Position numbers and translations under genes: made by a program. Positions 5,198 through 34,754 of a stretch of DNA of 37,425 bases are shown piece after piece. The stretch comes from Thermanaerothrix sp. (GTDB lineage: Bacteria; Synergistota; Synergistia; Synergistales; Synergistaceae): contig JAOACP010000017.1 in the NCBI GenBank assembly GCA_026417795.1, positions 3,307 to 40,731 on the forward strand. Direction: 5' to 3'. The notes beneath the pieces are model-generated. The model saw only the letters and a list, made by a program, of their open reading frames with translations. It was not told where the DNA came from and did not search any database. Positions within the stretch are counted from its first letter, which is position 1, and each line of letters begins with the position of its first letter.

Positions 5198-6313
5198 TCA
5201 GCCCTCCTGGGATCTAGGATCATCCACCTGGAAGAACCGGGTGAGCCAGTGGCACAAGGTCTCACCCAAACTCGCCGGCCCCCGCGGGGACCTCAGCGAC
5301 CCGAGCAGCACGTCTCCTTCAAACCGCCCTCCCAGGGCCATCACCGAGGGGCCTTGATACTCAAGAACCCTCCTCTTGGCGGAAAGCCACCGGAAGTCCC
5401 CGTCCTCCGAGACGGCCAACACAAGGGGCTTGGTCTTCTCCCTGGAGGTTATCCACCTCAAGGCGGCCCCGAAGGAGGGGAAGAACTTTACCCCCTCTCC
5501 GCCCAGGTCCCCCTTAAGGGACCGGTGGGCCAGAAGCCGCAAGCCGCCGAAGGCGCCGCAAAGCGGAAGCAGCTTGAAGGGGTCGCACCCATCCTCCCCA
5601 ACGTACACGTAGAAGCCCCCGTTGAGGTGTCCGTTAAGACCGGTCCTAGCCAACAGGTCCGGCCTCCTCTCAAGGGTCCTTCGAACCCTCTCCCCACGGC
5701 GGAACTCCTCGATGACCCCATGGTCTCCCCCAAGCAGCTCCTCCGGGGCTTTAATACCCCGCCAGGCCGCGGGCCTCGTGTAGTGGGGATGGTCCAGGAA
5801 GCCCCTGTAGAACGAGTCCTCCCTAACCGCCTCCATGCGGCCCACCACGCCGGGTACCAATCGGGCCACCGCGTCCAACACCGCCATGGCTGGCAGCTCC
5901 CCGCCGGTTAGCACGAAGTCCCCAAGGGATACCTCCAGGTCCACGTGCTCCCCCACAAACCGCTCGTCCACCCCTTCGTAGTGGCCGCAAACAAGCAAGA
6001 GATGCTCCTTGCGGGCCAGCTCCTCCACCAGCTCCTGGTGAAGGTGAACCCCCTGGGGGCTTGGGTATACCACGAAGGGCTCGCAACCGGCGCTCACGGA
6101 CTCAACCGCCCGGGAAAGGGGCTCCGCCATGAGCACCATTCCCCCGCCGCCGAAGCTGTAATCGTCCACCTGGCGGTAACTTCCGTCGGCAAAGTCCCTA
6201 AGATCCAGCACCTGAACGTCCAAAACCCCGGAGGACACCGCCCGACCGATGACGCTGAAGCTCAGGTAACCCCTTATGAGATCCGGAAAGGCGGTAACGA
6301 CGGTTATCCTCAT
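5198..6313 (-). CDS. trmD: tRNA (guanine37-N1)-methyltransferase with extra C-terminal domain
   Basis: TrmD methylates G37 of tRNAs beside the anticodon with SAM, which prevents frameshifting. Residues 1 to about 226 are a complete TrmD: DDYSFGGGGMV (50-60), VCGHYEGVDERF (108-119), the knotted SAM-binding loop LTGGELPAMAVLDAVARLVPG, catalytic-type Asp166 in REDSF, then HPHYTRP and RRPDLL. The total of 371 residues is about 130 more than usual. Residues 228-371 form a separate domain ending GPASLGETLCHWLTRFF. This may be a worn version of the SPOUT-like RNA methyltransferase domain (PF09936) that is encoded next to trmD in some bacteria; that assignment is a guess. The start ATG has TGAGGGG just upstream. 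Confidence 0.93.
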   Translation of the reverse strand: MRITVVTAFPDLIRGYLSFSVIGRAVSSGVLDVQVLDLRDFADGSYRQVDDYSFGGGGMVLMAEPLSRAVESVSAGCEPFVVYPSPQGVHLHQELVEELARKEHLLLVCGHYEGVDERFVGEHVDLEVSLGDFVLTGGELPAMAVLDAVARLVPGVVGRMEAVREDSFYRGFLDHPHYTRPAAWRGIKAPEELLGGDHGVIEEFRRGERVRRTLERRPDLLARTGLNGHLNGGFYVYVGEDGCDPFKLLPLCGAFGGLRLLAHRSLKGDLGGEGVKFFPSFGAALRWITSREKTKPLVLAVSEDGDFRWLSAKRRVLEYQGPSVMALGGRFEGDVLLGSLRSPRGPASLGETLCHWLTRFFQVDDPRSQEG

Positions 6314-6325
6314 CCCCTCAAAGCC

Positions 6326-6874
6326 TCAATCCCAGAGGCCCTCCAGCAGATGGACCCTCATAACCCGAGCCTCAAGGTCCACCTGGATCACCACGTCCTT
6401 GATGGCGGGGATCATCTTGAGGGCCCCGTCGGGGGTGCGGACCTCGTAGACGTCGTTGCTGCCGGTGGGAAGAACCCCTTCCACCAGACCCAGCACTTCG
6501 CCGCTGTCATTGTCAACCACCTGAAGGCCCAGGATGTCGTCTATCCAGTAGACCCCCTCCTCCAGGGGCACCCGCTCCTCGGGGGCCACGGTGACCATAG
6601 CTCCCTTGAGCTCCTCCGCCTCCTCCATGCTGTCCACCCCCTCAAGGGTGACTATGAAGAGGTCCCTCCCGTCCTGGAAGCGAATATCCAGCACCGGCAG
6701 CTCCCTGGGAGGGCGCCTGCGGCCCCGGATCTCCGGCAGCTCAAGGTAGAGGCTATCCATGTCCAGGAACCGGTCCGGGTAGTCCGTGAGGGGCTTGAGT
6801 TTCAAGGCCCCCTTCACACCGTGGGTACCCACTATCCGTCCCACTATCACCCGGGACCTAGAGCTCTTCTCCAT
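6326..6874 (-). CDS. rimM: 16S rRNA processing protein RimM
   Basis: RimM helps mature the 30S head and binds S19. The protein shows the N-terminal VIVGRIVGTHGVKGALKLKPLTDYPDRF, a beta-barrel domain, then the PRC-barrel part YWIDDILGLQVVD and GLVEGVLPTGSNDVYEV, ending IPAIKDVVIQVDLE. The ATG at 6874 is preferred over a start ten codons further out: it puts the GTHGVKG motif at the normal distance and has GAGGAGGAAGG upstream. With this start the gene overlaps khpA by 17 bases. Only 12 bases separate its stop from trmD. Confidence 0.94.
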   Translation of the reverse strand: MEKSSRSRVIVGRIVGTHGVKGALKLKPLTDYPDRFLDMDSLYLELPEIRGRRRPPRELPVLDIRFQDGRDLFIVTLEGVDSMEEAEELKGAMVTVAPEERVPLEEGVYWIDDILGLQVVDNDSGEVLGLVEGVLPTGSNDVYEVRTPDGALKMIPAIKDVVIQVDLEARVMRVHLLEGLWD

Positions 6875-7130
6875 CGACAGGGCCTTCCTCCTCGTCCACC
6901 TCAACGTCCACCCGTTCCTTGGCCTTCACCGCCGCCGCCTTGGCTATCAGCCTTATGGCGTTTATGGTGGACCCACGTCTTCCTATCACCCGCCCCATGT
7001 CCTGATCCGCCACCTTTATGGTCACCAGGACCGAACCGGAGCCGTTCCTGACCTCGGACACCCGCACCTGATCGGGCAAGTCCACCAGCCCCTTCACTAT
7101 GCCTTCCACCAGAGCGGCGTAGTCGGGCAT
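6858..7130 (-). CDS. khpA: KH-domain RNA-binding protein KhpA (YlqC)
   Basis: This is a 90-residue single KH domain, with SVLVTIKVADQDMGRVIGRRGSTINAIR holding the GxxG loop (GRRG) and a following helix rich in Ala and Lys. KhpA proteins bind RNA, often with KhpB/EloR, and affect cell wall growth and division in Firmicutes. Its place between rpsP and rimM is the standard one. The acidic C-terminal tail (EVDEEEGPVDGEEL) is a little longer than usual. The ATG start at 7130 has GAGGG about ten bases upstream. Confidence 0.93.
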   Translation of the reverse strand: MPDYAALVEGIVKGLVDLPDQVRVSEVRNGSGSVLVTIKVADQDMGRVIGRRGSTINAIRLIAKAAAVKAKERVDVEVDEEEGPVDGEEL

Positions 7131-7146
7131 GGCAGTCCAAACCCTC

Positions 7147-7413
7147 TTACGCCTTCTCGGCGGTGAACTTGTCCCAGACGCCGGTCTTCTTGAGAACCGC
7201 CCTGGCGGTGTCGGAAGGGGTAGCCCCCTGCTTAAGCCAGTACAGGGCCCTCTCCTCGTTCACCTTGAGATCCGCAGGATCCGTCATGGGGTTGTAGGTG
7301 CCGATTAGCTCGATGAACTTACCATCCCTGGGGGAGCGGGAATCCGCCACCACCAAACGATAAAAGGGACTCTTCTTCCTCCCCTGACGGGTAAAACGTA
7401 TGCGAACCGCCAT
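7147..7413 (-). CDS. rpsP: 30S ribosomal protein S16
   Basis: S16 is a small assembly protein of the 30S body. The sequence [32 protein letters not shown] is the family N-terminus, followed by [11 protein letters not shown] and a C-terminal [21 protein letters not shown]. The start is the ATG at 7413 (88 residues). A GTG four codons upstream lies only one base after the AGGAGG and cannot use it. It is followed by khpA after 16 bases. Confidence 0.96.
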
Positions 7414-26990: not shown

Positions 26991-29351
26991 CTAGATCTCC
27001 TCCTGGGCGGTCCTGGCTATTATCTCCTCCTGATGGTAACGGTCCAGGTCCACGAAGTAGTCGCTGTACCCCGCCACCCGCACCAGCAGCCCCCGGTAGT
27101 TCTCCGGGTTCTCCTGGGCGTCCCTAAGGGTCTTGGAATCCACCACGTTGAACTGTATGTGGTGGCCGCCGAGCCTGAAGTAGGTCCTTATGAGGCGGCA
27201 AAGCTTCTCAAGCCCCTCCTCGCCGGCCAACACCGAGGGAAGGAACCGCTGGTTGAGCAGGGTGCCCCCGGACTTCACCTGGTCCATCTTGGACAGGGAC
27301 TTTATGACCGCCGTGGGCCCGTTCCTGTCCGCCCCGTGGGAAGGAGACGTGCCGTCGGACTCAGGCATGTGGGCGAAACGGCCATTGGGGGTGGCCCCTA
27401 GCTTCTTGCCGAAGTACACATGACACGTGGTGGACAGCATGTTTATGTGATACGTGGGCCCCTTGGGGGAGTTCTTGCCCTCTATGGCCCCCACCAGGGA
27501 CTCGTAGACCCGCCTCATTATCTGGTCCGCGTAATCGTCGTCGTTGCCGAAGAAGGGGGTGCGGTTCCACAGGTACTGGCGCATCTCATCGTACCCCATC
27601 CAGTTGCTGTTGCAGGCGGAAACCATCTCCTCCAGGCTGTAGCGGCCATCGTCGAACACGTGCTTCTTGATGGACGATAGGCTGTCGGTGACGGTGCCTA
27701 TGCCGCAGCACTGGATGTAGTCGGTGTTGTACTTGGCCCCCCCGTCGTAGTAGTCCCTTCCGCTCTCTATGCAGCCCTCTATGAGCACCGACAGGAACGG
27801 TGCTGGGGCATATTCGGCGAACATGGCGCTCAGGTAGTTGTCCACCCGGATCTTCACGTCCACCACGTACCGAAGCTGCCTCTCGAAGGCCTCGTAGAGC
27901 TCGTCGAAGCTCCTGAAGGCCGAAGGACCGCCGGTGGGGATGCCTATCCTCTTGCCCGTTAAGGGGTCTACCCCGTCGTTAAGGGTTATCTCCAATATCT
28001 TTGGCACGTTGAGGTAGCCGTGCAGTATGTAGGCCTCCCTGCCGAAGCACCCGGTCTCTATGCACCCGCTGGTGCCCCCCTCCCGGGCGTCCTCCACGGA
28101 CTTGCCCATCCGCACCTGCTGCTGCACCACAAGATCCGAGTTGAACACCGACGGATAGCCGGAGCCTCGGCGGATGACCCTGGCGGCGGCCTTCAAGAAC
28201 CTGTCGGGGGTCCTCTGGGATACGTGGACGCTCACCTGCGGCTGCAGGAGCTGCAGCTCGTCCAGCACCTCCAGTATAAGGTAGGAAGCCTCGCTGGTCC
28301 CGTCGGAACCGTCCCGCCTCACCCCCCCCAGGTTTATCTGGGTGAAGTCGTTGTAGGTGCCACTCTCCTGGGCGGTCACGCCGACCTTAGGCGGCGCCGG
28401 GGTGTTGTTCACTTTTATCCAGAAACAGGACAGGAGCTCCTTGGCGGCCTCCCGGGTAAGGGTCCCCTCCTCAAGCCCCTTGCGGTAGAAGGGCTCAAGG
28501 TGCTGGTCCAGGTGCCCCGGGGACATGGCGTCCCAGCCGTTTAGCTCCGTTATGGTGCCCAAGTGGCAGAACCAGTACATCTGAAGGGCCTCCCAGAAGT
28601 CCCTGGGGCTCTTGGCGGGAACCCTCCTGCACACCTCCGCTATCCTCAAAAGCTCCCGCCGCCTTTGGGGGTCCTCCTCTGCGGAGGCCATCCGTTCCGC
28701 CTCCTCCGCGTGCCTTAGGGCGAAGATGATGGCCCCGTCGCAGGCTATCTCCATGGCCTTGAGCTCCTCGTCCTTGGCCATGGCGTGGGGGTCGTTGAGC
28801 CAATCTATGGAGCTCCTGGCGGACCTTATCCTCTCCTTGAAGTCCTCAAGCCCCATCTGGTAGATGTTGCCCCCAAGGGCGGTGTGCCCCGGGGCCCGCT
28901 GCTCCATGAACTCGGTGAAGCAGCCCGCCTCGTACAGGTCCAGCCACTCCCTGGGCATCCGCTCAAAGGCCTTGTCCCGCAGGGACCTTCCCCTCCAGTA
29001 GGGGATCACCCGCTCCTCGTAAACTTTTATGTCCTCCTCGGACACGGAGTAGCTGGTCATGGGGCGGGAGTTGAGTATGCGCAGGTCCTCCGCGGAGTGG
29101 CAGTTGAGCTCCGGGAAGGTGGACACCGCCTTGGGCCTTGGCCCCCTCTCCCCCACTATGAGCTCAAGGGGGCCTATGTAGATGGTCTTCTTCTCGCACA
29201 GGTTCTTGAAGTTCATGGCCCTCATGACCGGGGTGGAGTACTTGCCGTAGTTCTCCCGGTAGAAGTCCGTCACGATGAGCGCCCGCTCAATGGAGACGCT
29301 GGGCTTCGTGGAAAAACTCTCCTCCCTCAACCTTGCTATCCGCTCGTTCAT
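26991..29351 (-). CDS. hypD: Glycyl radical enzyme, probable trans-4-hydroxy-L-proline dehydratase
   Basis: HypD removes water from trans-4-hydroxy-L-proline to give pyrroline-5-carboxylate, using a glycyl radical and a thiyl radical. In the 786-residue reading, the radical Gly is 761 (RVAGYSDYF) and the thiyl Cys and base Glu are 430 and 432 (SGCIETGCFGREAY). Residues I remember as lining the Clostridioides difficile HypD site (His160, Asp278, Ser334, Phe340, Cys434, Glu436, Tyr450, Thr645, Gly765) are all present here with one constant offset of four (156, 274, 330, 336, 430, 432, 446, 641, 761). This argues against PFL, choline lyase or glycerol dehydratase. The ATG at 29351 has GGGAGG nine bases upstream; ATG at 29357 or GTG at 29360 are possible. 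No proC, the usual partner, is adjacent. Confidence 0.82.
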   Translation of the reverse strand: MNERIARLREESFSTKPSVSIERALIVTDFYRENYGKYSTPVMRAMNFKNLCEKKTIYIGPLELIVGERGPRPKAVSTFPELNCHSAEDLRILNSRPMTSYSVSEEDIKVYEERVIPYWRGRSLRDKAFERMPREWLDLYEAGCFTEFMEQRAPGHTALGGNIYQMGLEDFKERIRSARSSIDWLNDPHAMAKDEELKAMEIACDGAIIFALRHAEEAERMASAEEDPQRRRELLRIAEVCRRVPAKSPRDFWEALQMYWFCHLGTITELNGWDAMSPGHLDQHLEPFYRKGLEEGTLTREAAKELLSCFWIKVNNTPAPPKVGVTAQESGTYNDFTQINLGGVRRDGSDGTSEASYLILEVLDELQLLQPQVSVHVSQRTPDRFLKAAARVIRRGSGYPSVFNSDLVVQQQVRMGKSVEDAREGGTSGCIETGCFGREAYILHGYLNVPKILEITLNDGVDPLTGKRIGIPTGGPSAFRSFDELYEAFERQLRYVVDVKIRVDNYLSAMFAEYAPAPFLSVLIEGCIESGRDYYDGGAKYNTDYIQCCGIGTVTDSLSSIKKHVFDDGRYSLEEMVSACNSNWMGYDEMRQYLWNRTPFFGNDDDYADQIMRRVYESLVGAIEGKNSPKGPTYHINMLSTTCHVYFGKKLGATPNGRFAHMPESDGTSPSHGADRNGPTAVIKSLSKMDQVKSGGTLLNQRFLPSVLAGEEGLEKLCRLIRTYFRLGGHHIQFNVVDSKTLRDAQENPENYRGLLVRVAGYSDYFVDLDRYHQEEIIARTAQEEI

Positions 29352-29356
29352 CCTCA

Positions 29357-30277
29357 TCACCCTCCCACCTTGACTTCCAAGCCCATCTCTTCAAGGATCC
29401 CCGCCACCTCCCACATCAAATCGGCGGACGGGGGGGCCACCTCCGGCATTTCCGCAAGCCCATACTCCAGCCCACAGCGGCGGTACTTCTGCATCCCCGC
29501 GGAGTGATACGGAAGCACGTGAATCCTTTTAAGCCCAAGCTCCAACATGGTCTTCCCCATGAGGCTTACGTTGGAAGGTTGATCGTTCAGCGATGGTATG
29601 AGGGGGAACCTTATCCATATCTTCCCGCCGCAGCCCCCTTCAACGAGGGCCCTAAGGTTCTCCAGCACCGGGCCGTTGCCAACGCCTGTGAGGCGCCGGT
29701 GCTGCTCGTCGTCCATGTGTTTAAGGTCGTAGAGGATTAGGTCCGATGCCCTGCCGGCCGCAAGGGCCCCCTCAAGGGGGGCGTAGCCGCTGGTGTCCAA
29801 GGCCACGTGGACCCCCGCGTCTTTGAGAAGCCCCATGCAGGCCAGGAGGAACTCCATCTGCGAGAGGGGCTCCCCGCCGGAGAAGGTGACCCCTCCGCCG
29901 GACTCGTCGAAGAAGATCTCGTCATCAAGGGCCTTGCGCAGCACCTCCTCGGGGGTCATCTGAAACCCCACTTTCTTGAGGGCCTCGGTTGGGCATTGAT
30001 CGGCGCACGTGCCGCAAAGATCGCAGACAGCGCGGTCTATCAGCAATCTCTCCGCGATCTTAAGGGCCCCCTTAGGGCAGGCCCCTACGCACCGCCCGCA
30101 GGCCACGCACCTCTCCACGGAGTAGGAGAGGGAGGGGCCGAACTCCCAGCTCTCCGGGTTGTGGCACCAAAGGCATCTCAAGGGACACCCCTTGAGGTGG
30201 AACGTGGTCCTTATGCCGGGACCGTCGTGGATGGAGTAGCGCTTTACGTCGTAAACTAAACCCTTCACGCGGCACAC
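29357..30277 (-). CDS. Glycyl radical enzyme activating enzyme (radical SAM)
   Basis: This is the activase that uses SAM and a [4Fe-4S] cluster to make the glycyl radical on the neighbouring HypD. It has 306 residues with the radical-SAM CxxxCxxC at Cys31, Cys35 and Cys38 (GCPLRCLWCHNPE). Two added ferredoxin-type [4Fe-4S] motifs follow (Cys57/60/63/67 and Cys85/88/91/95), then the SAM-binding TFSGGEPLSQ. The two-cluster insert is usual for activases of the dehydratase/lyase classes and absent from PFL activase. The start is uncertain: GTG at 30277 is only two bases from AAGGGGGG, and GTG at 30268 is 11 bases from it. A hairpin (30276-30294) covers this site. The stop overlaps a hypD ATG (TGATG). 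Confidence 0.92.
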   Translation of the reverse strand: MCRVKGLVYDVKRYSIHDGPGIRTTFHLKGCPLRCLWCHNPESWEFGPSLSYSVERCVACGRCVGACPKGALKIAERLLIDRAVCDLCGTCADQCPTEALKKVGFQMTPEEVLRKALDDEIFFDESGGGVTFSGGEPLSQMEFLLACMGLLKDAGVHVALDTSGYAPLEGALAAGRASDLILYDLKHMDDEQHRRLTGVGNGPVLENLRALVEGGCGGKIWIRFPLIPSLNDQPSNVSLMGKTMLELGLKRIHVLPYHSAGMQKYRRCGLEYGLAEMPEVAPPSADLMWEVAGILEEMGLEVKVGG

Positions 30278-30313: not shown

Positions 30314-31021
30314 TTACATGGAACCTTCTTCCTTGGTCTCCTTTATAGGGTCCAGCTCCCATTGACTTGCGAAGTAGTACTTTCTTATGAACCGCTCCTG
30401 CACCTCAAAGGACCAGTGCACGTCCCGTATGTACTCCGCGGCTCCGTTGAAGTCCTTCCTCCCAAGGAGGTTCACTATCTCCTGGTGCTCCTTAACTGAG
30501 TTGAGCTCCCATTCCTTCACGAACCCCTTGCTCCTTGGGAAGTCATAGAGCCGTTCCTTGAGTATCCTCACCGTGTGGAGCAGGTCCTGGTTCTCCGAGA
30601 GCCCAAGGTAGGTGTTGTGGAAGTCCAGGTTCAACCGGTAGAAACGATTGAAGTCGTCGTCCCCAAGGGCCTCCTCCATCTCAAGGTTCAAGGCCTCCAT
30701 GCGCTTTACATGCTGATCCGTGATCTTGAGGGCCTCGTTGACCACCACCGCCCCCTCCAGGGCTCCCAGGATCTCGTAGATGTTCTTTATCTTCTTGAGA
30801 TCCAGAGGGTTCACCATGATGCCCCGCCTTGGGTATATGGTCACGAAACCCTCCGCCTCCAGCTGGAAAAGGGCGTCCCGCAAAGGGGTCTTGCTCATGC
30901 CAAGGTTCCTGCTTATCTCGTTGAGGTCGAGAAACGAGCCCTGTTTAAGCCGCCCCTCGTTCATCTCCCTTTTCAAGTACTCGTACACCTGCTCGCGGAG
31001 CGACTTGAGGTTAAGCTCCAA
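30314..31021 (-). CDS. GntR-family (FadR/FCD) transcriptional regulator
   Basis: This 235-residue regulator is first in the hypD operon. Residues 5-72 form the GntR winged helix (LREQVYEYLKREMNEGRLKQG, SRNLGMSKTPLRDAL, LEAEGFVTIYPRRGIMV). Residues 80-215 are an FCD effector domain with Asp133, His135, His179 and His202 as metal/ligand residues. It probably senses hydroxyproline or the TRAP substrate. It is the best candidate to bind the CTGATATATCAG-type sites at 31050, 31181, 34701 and 34743. TTG start at 31021, six bases after AAGGGGGGC. The activase follows 36 bases downstream. Confidence 0.93.
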   Translation of the reverse strand: MELNLKSLREQVYEYLKREMNEGRLKQGSFLDLNEISRNLGMSKTPLRDALFQLEAEGFVTIYPRRGIMVNPLDLKKIKNIYEILGALEGAVVVNEALKITDQHVKRMEALNLEMEEALGDDDFNRFYRLNLDFHNTYLGLSENQDLLHTVRILKERLYDFPRSKGFVKEWELNSVKEHQEIVNLLGRKDFNGAAEYIRDVHWSFEVQERFIRKYYFASQWELDPIKETKEEGSM

Positions 31022-31040: not shown

Positions 31041-31068
31041 ATTCTAACACAGATATATCAGATATCAA
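31041..31068 (-). promoter_or_regulatory. Proximal promoter of gntR-activase-hypD
   Basis: On the - strand, TTGATA (31063-31068), 16 bases, TAGAAT (31041-31046). The spacer holds operator copy A (31050-31061). The predicted start is about 13 bases before the gntR start codon, so the leader is very short. Confidence 0.68.
31050..31061. promoter_or_regulatory. Operator-like site A
   Basis: CAGATATATCAG, one mismatch to the palindrome CTGATATATCAG, inside the spacer of the proximal gntR promoter. The surrounding 15 bases (31052-31066) match those at 34703-34717 in 13 of 15 positions. Confidence 0.65.
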
Positions 31069-31180: not shown

Positions 31181-31192
31181 CTGATACATCAG
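31181..31192. promoter_or_regulatory. Operator-like site C
   Basis: CTGATACATCAG, one mismatch to CTGATATATCAG. It lies about 35-46 bases downstream of the start predicted for the distal promoter (31234-31262). TGCTGATAC-(A/G)-TCA is shared with site D. Confidence 0.6.
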
Positions 31193-31233: not shown

Positions 31234-31262
31234 ATTATAAATTTAGCGGTCAGGGGCTTCAA
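31234..31262 (-). promoter_or_regulatory. Distal promoter upstream of gntR-activase-hypD
   Basis: On the - strand, TTGAAG (31257-31262), 17 bases, TATAAT (31234-31239). A second TATAAT follows at 31226-31231 because AGGATTAT is repeated. It is placed after the end of the TRAP operon and before operator copy C. Confidence 0.65.
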
Positions 31263-31295: not shown

Positions 31296-31448
31296 TCAAA
31301 GCCCTCTCTTCTTAAGAACCCTCGACAGGGCCCCCGCCCCGGCGGACAGGGCGTAGAACCCCGGAAGGTCCGTGAGCGCCGCCGCTCCCAGGAGGATAAG
31401 GCAGGCAAGCCCCACCAAGGTGGAGGCGGAGGGCCTCACGGCGGTCAT
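31296..31448 (-). CDS. 50-residue membrane protein at the end of the TRAP operon
   Basis: This is a small gene whose ATG overlaps the dctM stop by one base (TGATG), with GGGGGTG eight bases upstream inside dctM. The product has 50 residues: hydrophobic 9-25 (STLVGLACLILLGAAAL), the turn TDLPG, hydrophobic 31-42, and a basic end, LSRVLKKRGL. It looks like one helix or a tight helical hairpin in the membrane. The family is not recognised. Tight coupling to dctM suggests a role in assembly or control of this TRAP transporter, which is inference. The next - strand sequence is the distal hypD promoter. Confidence 0.62.
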   Translation of the reverse strand: MTAVRPSASTLVGLACLILLGAAALTDLPGFYALSAGAGALSRVLKKRGL

Positions 31449-32764
31449 CACCAGGGCACCCCCAGCAGGACGTGGGGTAGGAAAAGCACAAGCTTGGGCA
31501 CGTAGGCGGTGAAGAGCAGGACTGGCACCCAGCACAGGAGCATGAACTTAAGGGCCGGCCCCATCATCTCGTTTATTGGGGCCCTGGCAAGACGCCCTCC
31601 AAGGTAGAGGACCGGCGCCGCCGGAGGGGTTATGCACCCAAGGGCGGTGTTGACCCCCACCACCGCCGCGTAGTGTATGGGGTTGAAGCCAAGCTTGGCT
31701 ATTATGGGCATCATTATTGGGGTGGTGAGCACCACCACGCTTATGTCGTCCATGAGCATGCCCATTATGACCAGGAAGACGTTTATCATCCCCATTATGA
31801 CCCACCGGTTGGTGGATATGGACTCGAAGAAGTAAAGCATCTTGCTGGGCAGGTCCTCCAGGACGTAGAGGCGGGACAACATGGACACCGAGTAAAGCAT
31901 GGCCATTATGACGCCGGTGGTTATGGCGGACTCCACGACGACCCCCGCAAGCCCCCTCCAGTCGGTGCCCCGGTAAACCCAAAGGGCCACCGGTATGGAG
32001 TACAGCACCGCCACGGCGGAGGCCTCGGTGGTGGTCATTATGCCCCCGTAGACCCCGCCAAGCACTATAACGGGCAACAGCAGCGCCGGGATAGCCCCCT
32101 TGGAGCGGAGCTTAAGGAGCTTCAACCTCTCGGGCAGGCTCCTGCGCTGGGACACCAGGACCGACGGGTCGTCCTTAAGTATGTACAGGTTGACAAGACA
32201 TATCAGGGTCGTGGCAAGCAACCCGGGCACCACGGTGGCGAGGAAACAGGCCAATATGGACTGCCCGCTTATCCAGGCGAAGATTATGAGCGTGGCGTTT
32301 GGGGGTATCAGAAGCCCCAGGAGGGAGGCGTTGGACATAAGCGCCGCCGCGTGCCCCTTGGGATACCCTCCCGCCTCGAAGCGGGGGAACATTATGCTTC
32401 CTATGCAGGACAGGGTGGCGCAAGCGGCGCCGGATATGGAGCCGAAGACCGCGCAGGATATGGTGCCCACTATGCCGAGGCCTCCCTTGAGGTGTCCCAC
32501 GAAGACGTCCACCAGGTCTATGAGCCTCTCCCCTATTCGGCCCCTCTCCATTATGCCACCAGCCATTATGAACATGGCGATGGCTATGAGGGACACGGAG
32601 TTCATCTGGGCAAAGCCGTAGGGCAGCAGCTGGCTTGGGTCGTACCCCAGGCCGTCGGGGCCTCCGAAGAAGATGAGCCAGGCGGCGGAGGCCATGAAGC
32701 TCACCGGCACCGGGACGCCGATGAGAAGGCAGAACATGAGCACCACAAGGGCAACGTATATCAT
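31448..32764 (-). CDS. dctM: TRAP transporter large permease, DctM type
   Basis: This is the ion-coupled transport subunit of a tripartite ATP-independent periplasmic transporter. It has 438 residues and about 12 hydrophobic segments, with family marks LLIGVPVPVSFM near the start, GGIMERGRIGERLIDLVDVFVGHLKGGLG, SGAACATLSCIGSIMFP, SLLGLLIPPNATLIIFA and the end PPAAPVLYLGGRLA. The ATG at 32764 overlaps the dctQ stop as ATGA, with GGAGGGG upstream; an ORF opening at 32878 is too long for the family. Confidence 0.94.
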   Translation of the reverse strand: MIYVALVVLMFCLLIGVPVPVSFMASAAWLIFFGGPDGLGYDPSQLLPYGFAQMNSVSLIAIAMFIMAGGIMERGRIGERLIDLVDVFVGHLKGGLGIVGTISCAVFGSISGAACATLSCIGSIMFPRFEAGGYPKGHAAALMSNASLLGLLIPPNATLIIFAWISGQSILACFLATVVPGLLATTLICLVNLYILKDDPSVLVSQRRSLPERLKLLKLRSKGAIPALLLPVIVLGGVYGGIMTTTEASAVAVLYSIPVALWVYRGTDWRGLAGVVVESAITTGVIMAMLYSVSMLSRLYVLEDLPSKMLYFFESISTNRWVIMGMINVFLVIMGMLMDDISVVVLTTPIMMPIIAKLGFNPIHYAAVVGVNTALGCITPPAAPVLYLGGRLARAPINEMMGPALKFMLLCWVPVLLFTAYVPKLVLFLPHVLLGVPW

Positions 32765-33357
32765 CTCTTCACCCCTCCAAGCGATTCCAGCAGGAGGACG
32801 AAGCTCACCCAGAGGTCCCTCACAAAGTAAAGGACCATGAAGGCCAACCCGCCGAATATGGCGCCGTAAGAGGTCCAAAGGGGTATCCGCCAGACGGTGG
32901 TCATGGGAACGGCGATCCCGTTGCCCAAAGGACCCTTGAAGCCGAACATGAAGAAGTCGTAACCGTAGTAGAGGAACAGGGAAGACACCCCCACGGTTAT
33001 GAGGTTCTTAAGGAGCACCAGCGCACGCTTGAAAACCCCCTCGGGCACGTAGGAGTTCACTATGTCGGCGGACACGTGGGTGCCGTTGAGGGCCCCGTAG
33101 GCGGCGCCGGAGAAGTAGAGCCAGAAGGCGAAGAGCTTAACCCACTCCTCGTAGCCGTAAAGGTCGGTCTTGAATACGTACCTCATAAGGGTGGCGGCCC
33201 CTATCATGAGGGCCAAAAGGATCGACATGGCCATGCATATGGCGCCAAAAAACCGCTGCCCCACAAGCTCAAGGACAGGCCACCCCTTGGACCTCCTCTC
33301 GGAGGCCTCGCAAGGGGTGGGGGAGGAATCGAGAACTGCCTGGGTCAAATCCTCCAA
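32761..33357 (-). CDS. dctQ: TRAP transporter small permease, DctQ type
   Basis: This is the four-helix membrane partner of DctM, about 198 residues. After a polar N-terminus come four hydrophobic segments; the second is preceded by TLMRYVFKTDLYGYEEWVKLFAFWLYFSGAAYG, the DctQ signature with the conserved Glu-Glu-Trp-type segment and THVSADIV. The start is uncertain. TTG at 33357 is taken because AAAGGAGA lies about ten bases before; a frame opening at 33507 would run through the dctP-dctQ hairpin. The N-terminal stretch is longer than usual for the family. Confidence 0.88.
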   Translation of the reverse strand: MEDLTQAVLDSSPTPCEASERRSKGWPVLELVGQRFFGAICMAMSILLALMIGAATLMRYVFKTDLYGYEEWVKLFAFWLYFSGAAYGALNGTHVSADIVNSYVPEGVFKRALVLLKNLITVGVSSLFLYYGYDFFMFGFKGPLGNGIAVPMTTVWRIPLWTSYGAIFGGLAFMVLYFVRDLWVSFVLLLESLGGVKR

Positions 33358-33447
33358 ATCCGGCACTCTCCTTTCTTCGACAATCCATCGGTCCTGGAAG
33401 AGGGCCTTCGAAGGGGCCCTGCATGAAGGGAACCCATAAGAAGGCCT

Positions 33448-33494
33448 CGCCGGGCGGGGGACAGGGCCATGGGGGATGACGGCGCCGCCCGGCG
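33448..33494 (-). other. Stem-loop between dctP and dctQ
   Basis: CGCCGGGCGG (33448-33457) pairs perfectly with CCGCCCGGCG (33485-33494) around 27 bases. There is no U tract, so it is more likely an RNA-stability or partial-stop element that raises DctP over DctQM than a full terminator. Confidence 0.55.
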
Positions 33495-33511
33495 GGGAAC
33501 TTAGCACTTAC

Positions 33512-34501
33512 CTACTTCGGAGCCAGGTTCTTCCTGAACTCGACCATGAGCTCCCGGGTCATCTTCTTCTCCAGCTTGGGCCAGCTCTCCGCTATGGCCT
33601 TGGATATGGGCAGCAGCTGGGCCTCGCTGTAGCGAAAGACCTTGATGCCCTTCTTCTCCATGGCCTTCATGGAGGCCTCGTCCAGGGCCTTGGCCTCGTC
33701 GATGCTCTTTATGGTGGCCTTAGTCATCACGTCCGCTATGACCTTCCGGTCCTCGGGCTTGAGCTTGTCCCACACCTTCTTGCTCATGAAGAAGTTGATG
33801 CACTCCATGGAGTAGTTGGTGGCGTACCAGTACTTGATCACGTCGCCCAGGGCGGTGAGGGCCGCGGTGGTGGCAAAGCCGTTGACCCCGTCGCAGACCC
33901 CGGTCTGCATGGCCTGGTAGACGTCCGCGTAGGGTATGGTTATGGTCCTGTAGCCCATGGCCTCAGCCCCGAGCTTGTACACGTCCATGTTGGGGACCCG
34001 GCAGAGGATGCCCTTGTCCACCTTGGGGTTCAAGGGGTCCTTGGCGGGCTTGGTGGTGCCGGTTCCTATCATGCCCTCCACGTAGAAGCCCAGCAGCTTG
34101 ACCCCGAGCCTTCCGTTGAGCTCGTCCATCTTCTTGAAGAGCCACCCGTCGGGGGAGAATATCTTCTTGGCGGAGTCGTAGCCCCGGACGTAGCCGTTCA
34201 CGTACATGAGCTCCAGGCGGGGATCGAACTGGCTGGGTACCGATATGAGGGCCATGTCTATGGTGCCCTTTATGAGCTCCTCGTAAACCAGCGTGTAGTC
34301 CCCCAGCTGGTTCCCCGGGTACACCCTCACGGCAATCCTTCCGTTGGTGCGCTTGAGTATCTCCGACGCTATGTCCCTCATGAGCCGGCTTCCAGGGTGG
34401 TCCGCCGGGTACTGCCCCGCGAACTTGAGGGTGACCTCCGCGCCGAACGCGGCGGGCACGAACGCCAAGACCAGCAAAAGCCCCGCAAGCAACCTTCTCA
34501 T
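33512..34501 (-). CDS. dctP: TRAP transporter substrate-binding protein, DctP type
   Basis: This is the periplasmic receptor of the TRAP system, 329 residues. It has a signal peptide (MRRLLAGLLLVLAFVPAAFG|AEV). The mature part shows FAGQYPADHPGSRL, the ligand-binding Arg in GILCRVPNMDVYKLGAEAMG (Arg pairs with a carboxylate in this family) and YADVYQAMQTGVCDGVNG. So the substrate has a carboxylate; hydroxyproline is suggested only by the coregulated hypD. The ATG at 34501 follows GGGAGGGG by eight bases and gives a proper signal peptide; a frame to 34672 is rejected. First gene of dctPQM plus the small membrane protein. Confidence 0.94.
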   Translation of the reverse strand: MRRLLAGLLLVLAFVPAAFGAEVTLKFAGQYPADHPGSRLMRDIASEILKRTNGRIAVRVYPGNQLGDYTLVYEELIKGTIDMALISVPSQFDPRLELMYVNGYVRGYDSAKKIFSPDGWLFKKMDELNGRLGVKLLGFYVEGMIGTGTTKPAKDPLNPKVDKGILCRVPNMDVYKLGAEAMGYRTITIPYADVYQAMQTGVCDGVNGFATTAALTALGDVIKYWYATNYSMECINFFMSKKVWDKLKPEDRKVIADVMTKATIKSIDEAKALDEASMKAMEKKGIKVFRYSEAQLLPISKAIAESWPKLEKKMTRELMVEFRKNLAPK

Positions 34502-34700
34502 AGCAGCAACCCCTCCCAAGTTGAAATGTAAAATATCAAACTCCACAGCGATCAACCCAACGCCCCGGCACACCACCTCCAATCTCAAGAAAAGGCCAAC
34601 AAAACCGACGGACATCACCGTAATTTGGGAATAAAACCCCCGACCTCCCCCCCATAAAACGGTGGAAAGCAAACTAAATCGAATTTATTTTAAATAACTA

Positions 34701-34712
34701 TTGATATTTCAG
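34701..34712. promoter_or_regulatory. Operator-like site B
   Basis: TTGATATTTCAG, two mismatches to CTGATATATCAG, just downstream of the start (about 34719) predicted for the dctPQM promoter. The 15 bases 34703-34717 match site A's surroundings in 13 positions. Confidence 0.6.
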
Positions 34713-34725
34713 ATATTACTGGAAA

Positions 34726-34754
34726 ACCATACATGGGCTTTGCTGATACGTCAA
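34726..34754 (-). promoter_or_regulatory. Promoter of the dctPQM operon
   Basis: On the - strand, TTGACG (34749-34754), 17 bases, TATGGT (34726-34731). Operator copy D covers the -35 and copy B follows the start site. The leader to dctP would be about 218 bases, which I cannot otherwise explain. The rest of the 473-bp gap (34502-34974) shows no gene and no clear + strand promoter for pncA. Confidence 0.65.
34743..34754. promoter_or_regulatory. Operator-like site D
   Basis: CTGATACGTCAA, three mismatches to CTGATATATCAG, covering the -35 of the dctPQM promoter. It shares TGCTGATAC-(A/G)-TCA with site C. Confidence 0.5.

Follow-up and report, generated by a model that had tools for sequence, protein, structure and literature searches.

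TRAP transporters are described as consisting of P, Q and M components, with an extra helix in the fused forms (PMC5812351). The fixed scaffold of SiaQM is reported to consist of Q together with a portion of M, and the fusion helix of the fused protein enlarges it and perhaps makes it more rigid (PMC10942642). The solved relatives of the DctM studied here are SiaQM/SiaT-type chains and the isethionate DctMQ 9pym. Small partners are known from other large membrane complexes, KdpF being one of them, and KdpF, CydX and AcrZ are single-helix proteins. The family presented here resembles these three in that a tiny membrane protein would serve a large membrane complex, but it differs in its predicted hairpin, basic end and W-x-x-P motif. 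Among the open-licence PMC papers listed in the searches, none was seen to describe a small membrane protein as a fourth TRAP component.

The window, meaning the whole stretch of DNA analysed (37,425 nucleotides from a Thermanaerothrix sp. contig), encodes ordinary DctP, DctQ and DctM proteins, all three found above profile cut-offs. It differs from the described TRAP systems in having a conserved gene for a small membrane protein behind dctM:

31296..31448, minus strand: gene for a small, predicted hairpin membrane protein; 50 codons; its ATG shares one base with the dctM stop (TGATG); based on the family profile and AlphaFold (low confidence)
31448..32764, minus strand: dctM, TRAP large permease, 438 aa; PF06808 289 bits and TIGR00786 308.8 bits, both above cut-offs
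32761..33507, minus strand: dctQ, TRAP small permease (coordinates of the ORF, whose true start is probably internal); PF04290 58.6 bits, cut-off 28.3
33512..34672, minus strand: dctP, TRAP substrate-binding protein (coordinates of the ORF, whose true start is probably internal); NF037995 130.9 bits, cut-off 50

On the minus strand dctM ends with TGG TGA, its stop codon being at 31450-31448, and the small ORF extends from an ATG at 31448-31446 to a TGA at 31298-31296, with a one-base overlap. The 50-residue ORF that the initial annotation saw beginning in the dctM stop codon is therefore real. Inspection by eye revealed a GGGGGTG sequence 8 nt 5' of the ATG that may base-pair with the 16S tail, one of the pairs being a G-U wobble; it falls inside the dctM codons for the conserved LGVPW.

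In 60 genomes, comprising that of the window and those of relatives, 44 orthologous dctM loci with 72-100% identity were found. A homologous small gene was found at most 1.4 kb downstream of dctM in 36 of them (the window counted), using a profile seeded with 8 of those small genes. The gene order DctP-Q-M-small was found repeatedly across loci. The short ORF sought at the same place in related genomes is indeed conserved behind dctM, and no broken frames were seen among relatives. The family alignment comprises 34 rows, namely 33 members from outside the window's genus and the window protein, and yields the consensus FYRNLFAxLCFIFF..AL.T.SP..Y.GAM.CGALSRTAxKKxWxxP. Residues F2, F7, A8, F12, A40, W45 and P48 (first-row numbering) are present in at least 33 of the 34 rows, and the motif positions were counted as F in 33, Y in 32, R or K in 33, W in 33 and P in 33 rows.

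With starts picked by hand, the 33 members are 66-90 aa long; in 19 of them the start lies in the interval from 4 nt before to 31 nt after the dctM stop, and in the other 14 it is 92-391 nt beyond the stop, indicating that overlap and coupling with dctM are not general. The Desulfobulbia-type members have about 50 aa and keep the motif, and the window protein is thus shorter only relative to the Synergistota members (66-90 aa). Some genomes contain extra copies of the small gene. At L186 (G066:C1), and also at L105, a copy lies behind a stretch, possibly a relic of dctM, in which only the end of DctM is matched (45% identity).

Eight of the 44 loci had no small gene within 1.4 kb. In L041 the contig ends 111 nt past dctM, and in L062 the small gene is located ~1.9 kb away on the opposite strand. 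Four others (L054, L055, L059 and L064) are second dctM copies in four Synergistaceae-type genomes. The small gene was absent at the remaining two, L038 and L065, as well as in genome G083. These absences, together with the second copies, indicate that some TRAP transporters of the same type manage without the small gene. It was also looked for behind DctM proteins of 54-58% identity, and none was found at the 6 loci inspected, which are part of many weaker DctM matches.

Co-occurrence was analysed in 185 Synergistota genomes, of which 61 matched the small-gene profile and 57 contained the DctM (at least 68% identity; list drawn up by hand and cut at this value, excluding G051, G178 and G179 with 57-59%). 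The small gene was present in 55 of these 57 genomes (Fisher 1.6e-37, a guide only, as kinship is ignored), the exceptions being G007 and G083. Six genomes had the small gene and no listed DctM. In G028 and G148 a DctM adjoins the small gene, as a fragment at a contig start and with 64% identity, respectively; in G015, G065 and G161 the small gene is located at contig starts; and the match in G112 is weak, has six stops and is probably spurious.

The association was also found in the class of Desulfosediminicola (Desulfobulbia in NCBI), where the small-gene profile and DctM (E up to 1e-120) each matched 13 of 257 genomes, and these were the identical 13 genomes. The two genes are adjacent in 12 of the 13; in the other, G332, the contig with DctM stops 5 bases beyond the gene, and the small frame is on another contig, 13 bases from its end. 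Homologues of the small gene are hence located behind orthologous dctM across Synergistota and in 13 Desulfobulbia-type genomes, which bears out the proposal of a conserved small fourth gene in the TRAP operon. A sample of 395 genomes from the Desulfosediminicola phylum contained a single match, the centre genome itself. A degenerate-pattern scan of genome contigs, the one scan reaching beyond both phyla, gave 27 loci, 24 of Synergistota type and 3 of Desulfobulbia type.

The distribution of absences was mapped on a DctM tree of 67 of 81 rows, the 14 rows shorter than 425 aa having been dropped. The label for small-gene presence changed 7 times, compared with 8.6 in shuffles (29 of 500 as low); this weak clustering indicates that the absences are scattered and do not form one clade. 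Changes in DctM coupled to absence of the small gene were considered and not used, since the seven gene-lacking DctM rows represent too few independent events: the F428A shared by the four second copies may stem from a single event, and the DctM of L065 (G007) ends in VEW, not PW. No claim is made from branch length either, because the gene-lacking rows L065, L038 and L181 are long, yet the gene-bearing L049, L161 and L182 are about equal.

Database comparisons assigned no known family to the small protein. The window protein and five members were below every Pfam and NCBIfam cut-off, PHROGs yielded no match above cut-off or with a convincing E-value for the window protein and two members, and PDB sequences compared with the family profile gave a best E of 0.19. 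One of the five members scanned matched DUF6116 (PF19611) at E 7.3e-4, with 19.9 bits against a cut-off of 27, and the other four and the window protein had no match to it. A match of one member to ASTER was also sub-threshold (E 0.0069). Derivation from a piece of DctQ, DctM or DctP was rejected, as profile comparisons gave probabilities below 1%. A tblastn search with one member as query found no plasmid-borne match in 72,556 records. The selenium small protein DUF3343 (PMC5322559) is unrelated to the small TRAP-linked protein.

The initial annotation proposed dN/dS as a check of the ORF, and the outcome differs between the family and the window's genus. Among 13 pairs from outside the genus, 12 were usable and gave dN/dS of 0.04-0.33, although 4 of these 12 have dS above 2; in the 13th pair dS was saturated. 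From these alignments the family is taken to be under purifying selection outside the window's genus. Within the genus, the three pairs of small ORFs gave 0.35 (G000 and G002), 0.88 (G000 and G001) and 0.48, with p values of 0.0035, 0.71 and 0.04, respectively, against no difference between synonymous and nonsynonymous proportions, and dctM gave 0.04-0.08. The signature of constraint thus holds in the family elsewhere, and the window's copy is fast-evolving.

The window protein and both congeners lack the FY[RK] before helix 1 and the W and P after the basic patch, and the window protein is a divergent relative, assigned to the family through synteny and profile only. The leave-genus-out profile, built from the 33 members with none from the window's genus, ranked the frame holding the ORF first among 804 window frames (18.5 bits, E 5e-5; next 8.2 bits). 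The two congener ORFs scored 17.3 and 16.6 bits, directly below true members among 11,471 background frames (next 12.2). These scores are modest by profile alone; taken together with the identical place directly behind the orthologous dctM, they make it likely that the window ORF is homologous to the family.

For the window's genus only, the ORF could be a decaying, functionless remnant of a family that is functional elsewhere. We regard this as a possibility to be taken seriously, albeit not the favoured one. It agrees with the fact that FYR, W and P have disappeared from each of the three congeners, and with the dN/dS of the G000 and G001 pair, which does not differ from 1, but the value for G000 and G002 argues against it. 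The three congeneric ORFs are also open, with 50, 47 and 48 codons, differ in length by whole codons, and overlap the dctM stop each time (TGATG twice, GTGA once). This openness is modest evidence, since an unconstrained frame of such composition stays open in 38-59% of simulations per comparison (substitutions only, without indels). The lost residues and fast evolution suggest that the role of the small protein in the window's genus may be reduced or gone.

The TRAP genes are followed in the window by genes of hydroxyproline metabolism and share with them several operator-like sites:

31181..31192, minus strand: palindrome CTGATGTATCAG, in the interval from the small gene to gntR; sites of this type also precede gntR in both congeners
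31052..31067, minus strand: operator-like site TGATATCTGATATATC before gntR-activase-hypD; identical in two congeners
30314..31021, minus strand: GntR/FCD-type regulator; PF07729 and PF00392 above cut-off
29357..30277, minus strand: glycyl-radical enzyme activase; TIGR02494 above cut-off, best match the HypD activase NF043069, below its cut-off
26991..29360, minus strand: HypD, trans-4-hydroxy-L-proline dehydratase; NF043068 1179.5 bits, cut-off 1100; top PDB match 6vxc
34703..34718, minus strand: related operator-like site TAATATCTGAAATATC before dctP, 2 mismatches; 2 and 3 mismatches in the congeners

Two TGATATCTGATATATC-type matches are found in the window, where 0.06 would be expected (at most 3 mismatches). 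The presence of such sites before gntR and dctP in three congeners suggests that the TRAP and gntR-activase-hypD operons are probably co-regulated, and the sites are perhaps bound by the GntR/FCD regulator. A CTGATGTATCAG-type site is also located before dctP, at 34743-34754, and this copy recurs in one congener only. By eye, a sigma-70-like promoter (TTGAAG, 17 nt, TATAAT) was seen at 31234-31262 (minus strand), in the interval from the small gene to gntR; one congener has it too.

Across Synergistota, a HypD match (E up to 1e-250) was detected in 47 of the 57 DctM-positive genomes, compared with 30 of the 128 others. The ten DctM-positive genomes without a match at this threshold are G007, G083 and eight bearing the small gene; G053 and G082, among the ten, have a HypD that is truncated by a contig end or split in two. 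The two parts in G082 (L146, 3834-6198) are adjacent, perhaps owing to a frameshift or an assembly error. Of the 20 wide Synergistota loci (L129-L148), only 9 had HypD inside the flanks that were fetched. In the Desulfobulbia-type loci, HypD or proline dehydrogenase was within the fetched flanks of 7 of 11, and not of L116, L117, L195 and L196; proline dehydrogenase was tested with PF01619 in L115 and, in the other loci, by tblastn to that of L115. Behind the small gene of L115 (Desulfosediminicola), an aldehyde ferredoxin oxidoreductase and a 72-aa protein without Pfam match are encoded (5298-7213), and a similar pair is found in L192.

The amino acid hydroxyproline occurs in collagen. Given HypD downstream, the matching sites in three congeners, and HypD or proline dehydrogenase near relatives, the substrate is most likely hydroxyproline or proline, which the TRAP transporter would bring in for the HypD or proline-dehydrogenase route. 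L188 (G018:C25) contains a DctM ortholog (75%) without a small gene. Next to it come genes for another glycyl-radical enzyme, with 34% identity to HypD, and for an activase, and this TRAP is perhaps used for another substrate.

Structure prediction with AlphaFold and the family alignment gave, for a typical member, a hairpin plus a short helix (helices 2-21, 24-43 and 49-58), with modest scores (pLDDT 70.7, pTM 0.46). For the window protein two helices (8-25 and 29-47) were predicted at low confidence (pLDDT 63.8, pTM 0.32). Lysine and arginine residues average 1.8 per protein before helix 1, 0.2 in the loop and 3.4 after helix 2. Positive charges at both ends and hardly any in the loop point to a hairpin with N and C ends in the cytoplasm and a basic C-terminal patch.

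The gene family, its position, its co-occurrence with DctM, the purifying selection outside the window's genus and the shared operator-like sites are sequence-based; for the small protein and its TRAP transporter we infer expression, topology, physical association, role and substrate. We consider it fairly probable that a dedicated two-helix hairpin is encoded by the fourth gene of one TRAP type and is a subunit of the permease scaffold of a (hydroxy)proline importer. By analogy with the SiaQM fusion helix, the hairpin would most likely dock onto the DctQM permease at its fixed scaffold side and stabilise it, as the extra helix may do in fused SiaQM. Both would supply the permease with additional membrane helix material; the difference is that here a separate protein is encoded after M, not a Q-M linker, and that no sequence relation to DctQ or DctM was found for it. 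No PDB chain matches the small-protein profile better than E 0.19, so the docking place is not visible in any solved TRAP structure. A wider reading, in which DctP, DctQ, DctM and a hairpin completing the scaffold would form a four-part TRAP class of (hydroxy)proline importers in Synergistota and Desulfobulbia that is inherited as a unit in these two phyla and whose hairpin a few lineages have lost or are losing, appears to us evenly balanced between true and false. The idea of a fourth TRAP component in the initial annotation thus survives as a conserved fourth gene that co-occurs near-perfectly with one DctM type, and is amended to a two-helix hairpin whose window copy is fast-evolving and lacks the residues most conserved in the family.

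An assembly factor or a regulator would leave an identical genomic trace. As an assembly or insertion factor, the hairpin would aid the insertion and pairing of DctM or DctQ and then depart, remaining outside the working pump; the same genetic linkage, small size and basic end would be expected of it. Sequence evidence does not separate such a factor from a subunit, but the near-strict pairing with one DctM type and the absence at the 6 lower-identity loci suggest a specific, lasting contact, and we consider this role unlikely. More unlikely still is a regulatory role, in which the peptide would adjust or inhibit transport in the manner of some small membrane proteins that act on other transporters. 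A precedent is AcrZ, which binds the pump AcrB and alters its activity (PMC7267776), but starts no more than 31 nt from the dctM stop, as in 19 of the 33 members, fit a constant and not a conditional supply. That the window ORF is a chance open frame and not a gene is very improbable: G+C-rich DNA does keep many frames open, but the first rank with the leave-genus-out profile and syntenic homologues throughout the phylum speak against it, and for the family as a whole chance is ruled out by synteny, co-occurrence and that same profile.

If a permease-scaffold hairpin is indeed a dedicated, conserved fourth membrane protein, the parts list of one TRAP type changes, and structural groups gain a concrete complex to solve. 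Since no tested member reached a Pfam or NCBIfam cut-off, it would also be an added protein family. The absence of the small gene in some lineages offers a natural experiment, and the likely substrate ties this TRAP type to anaerobic hydroxyproline breakdown.
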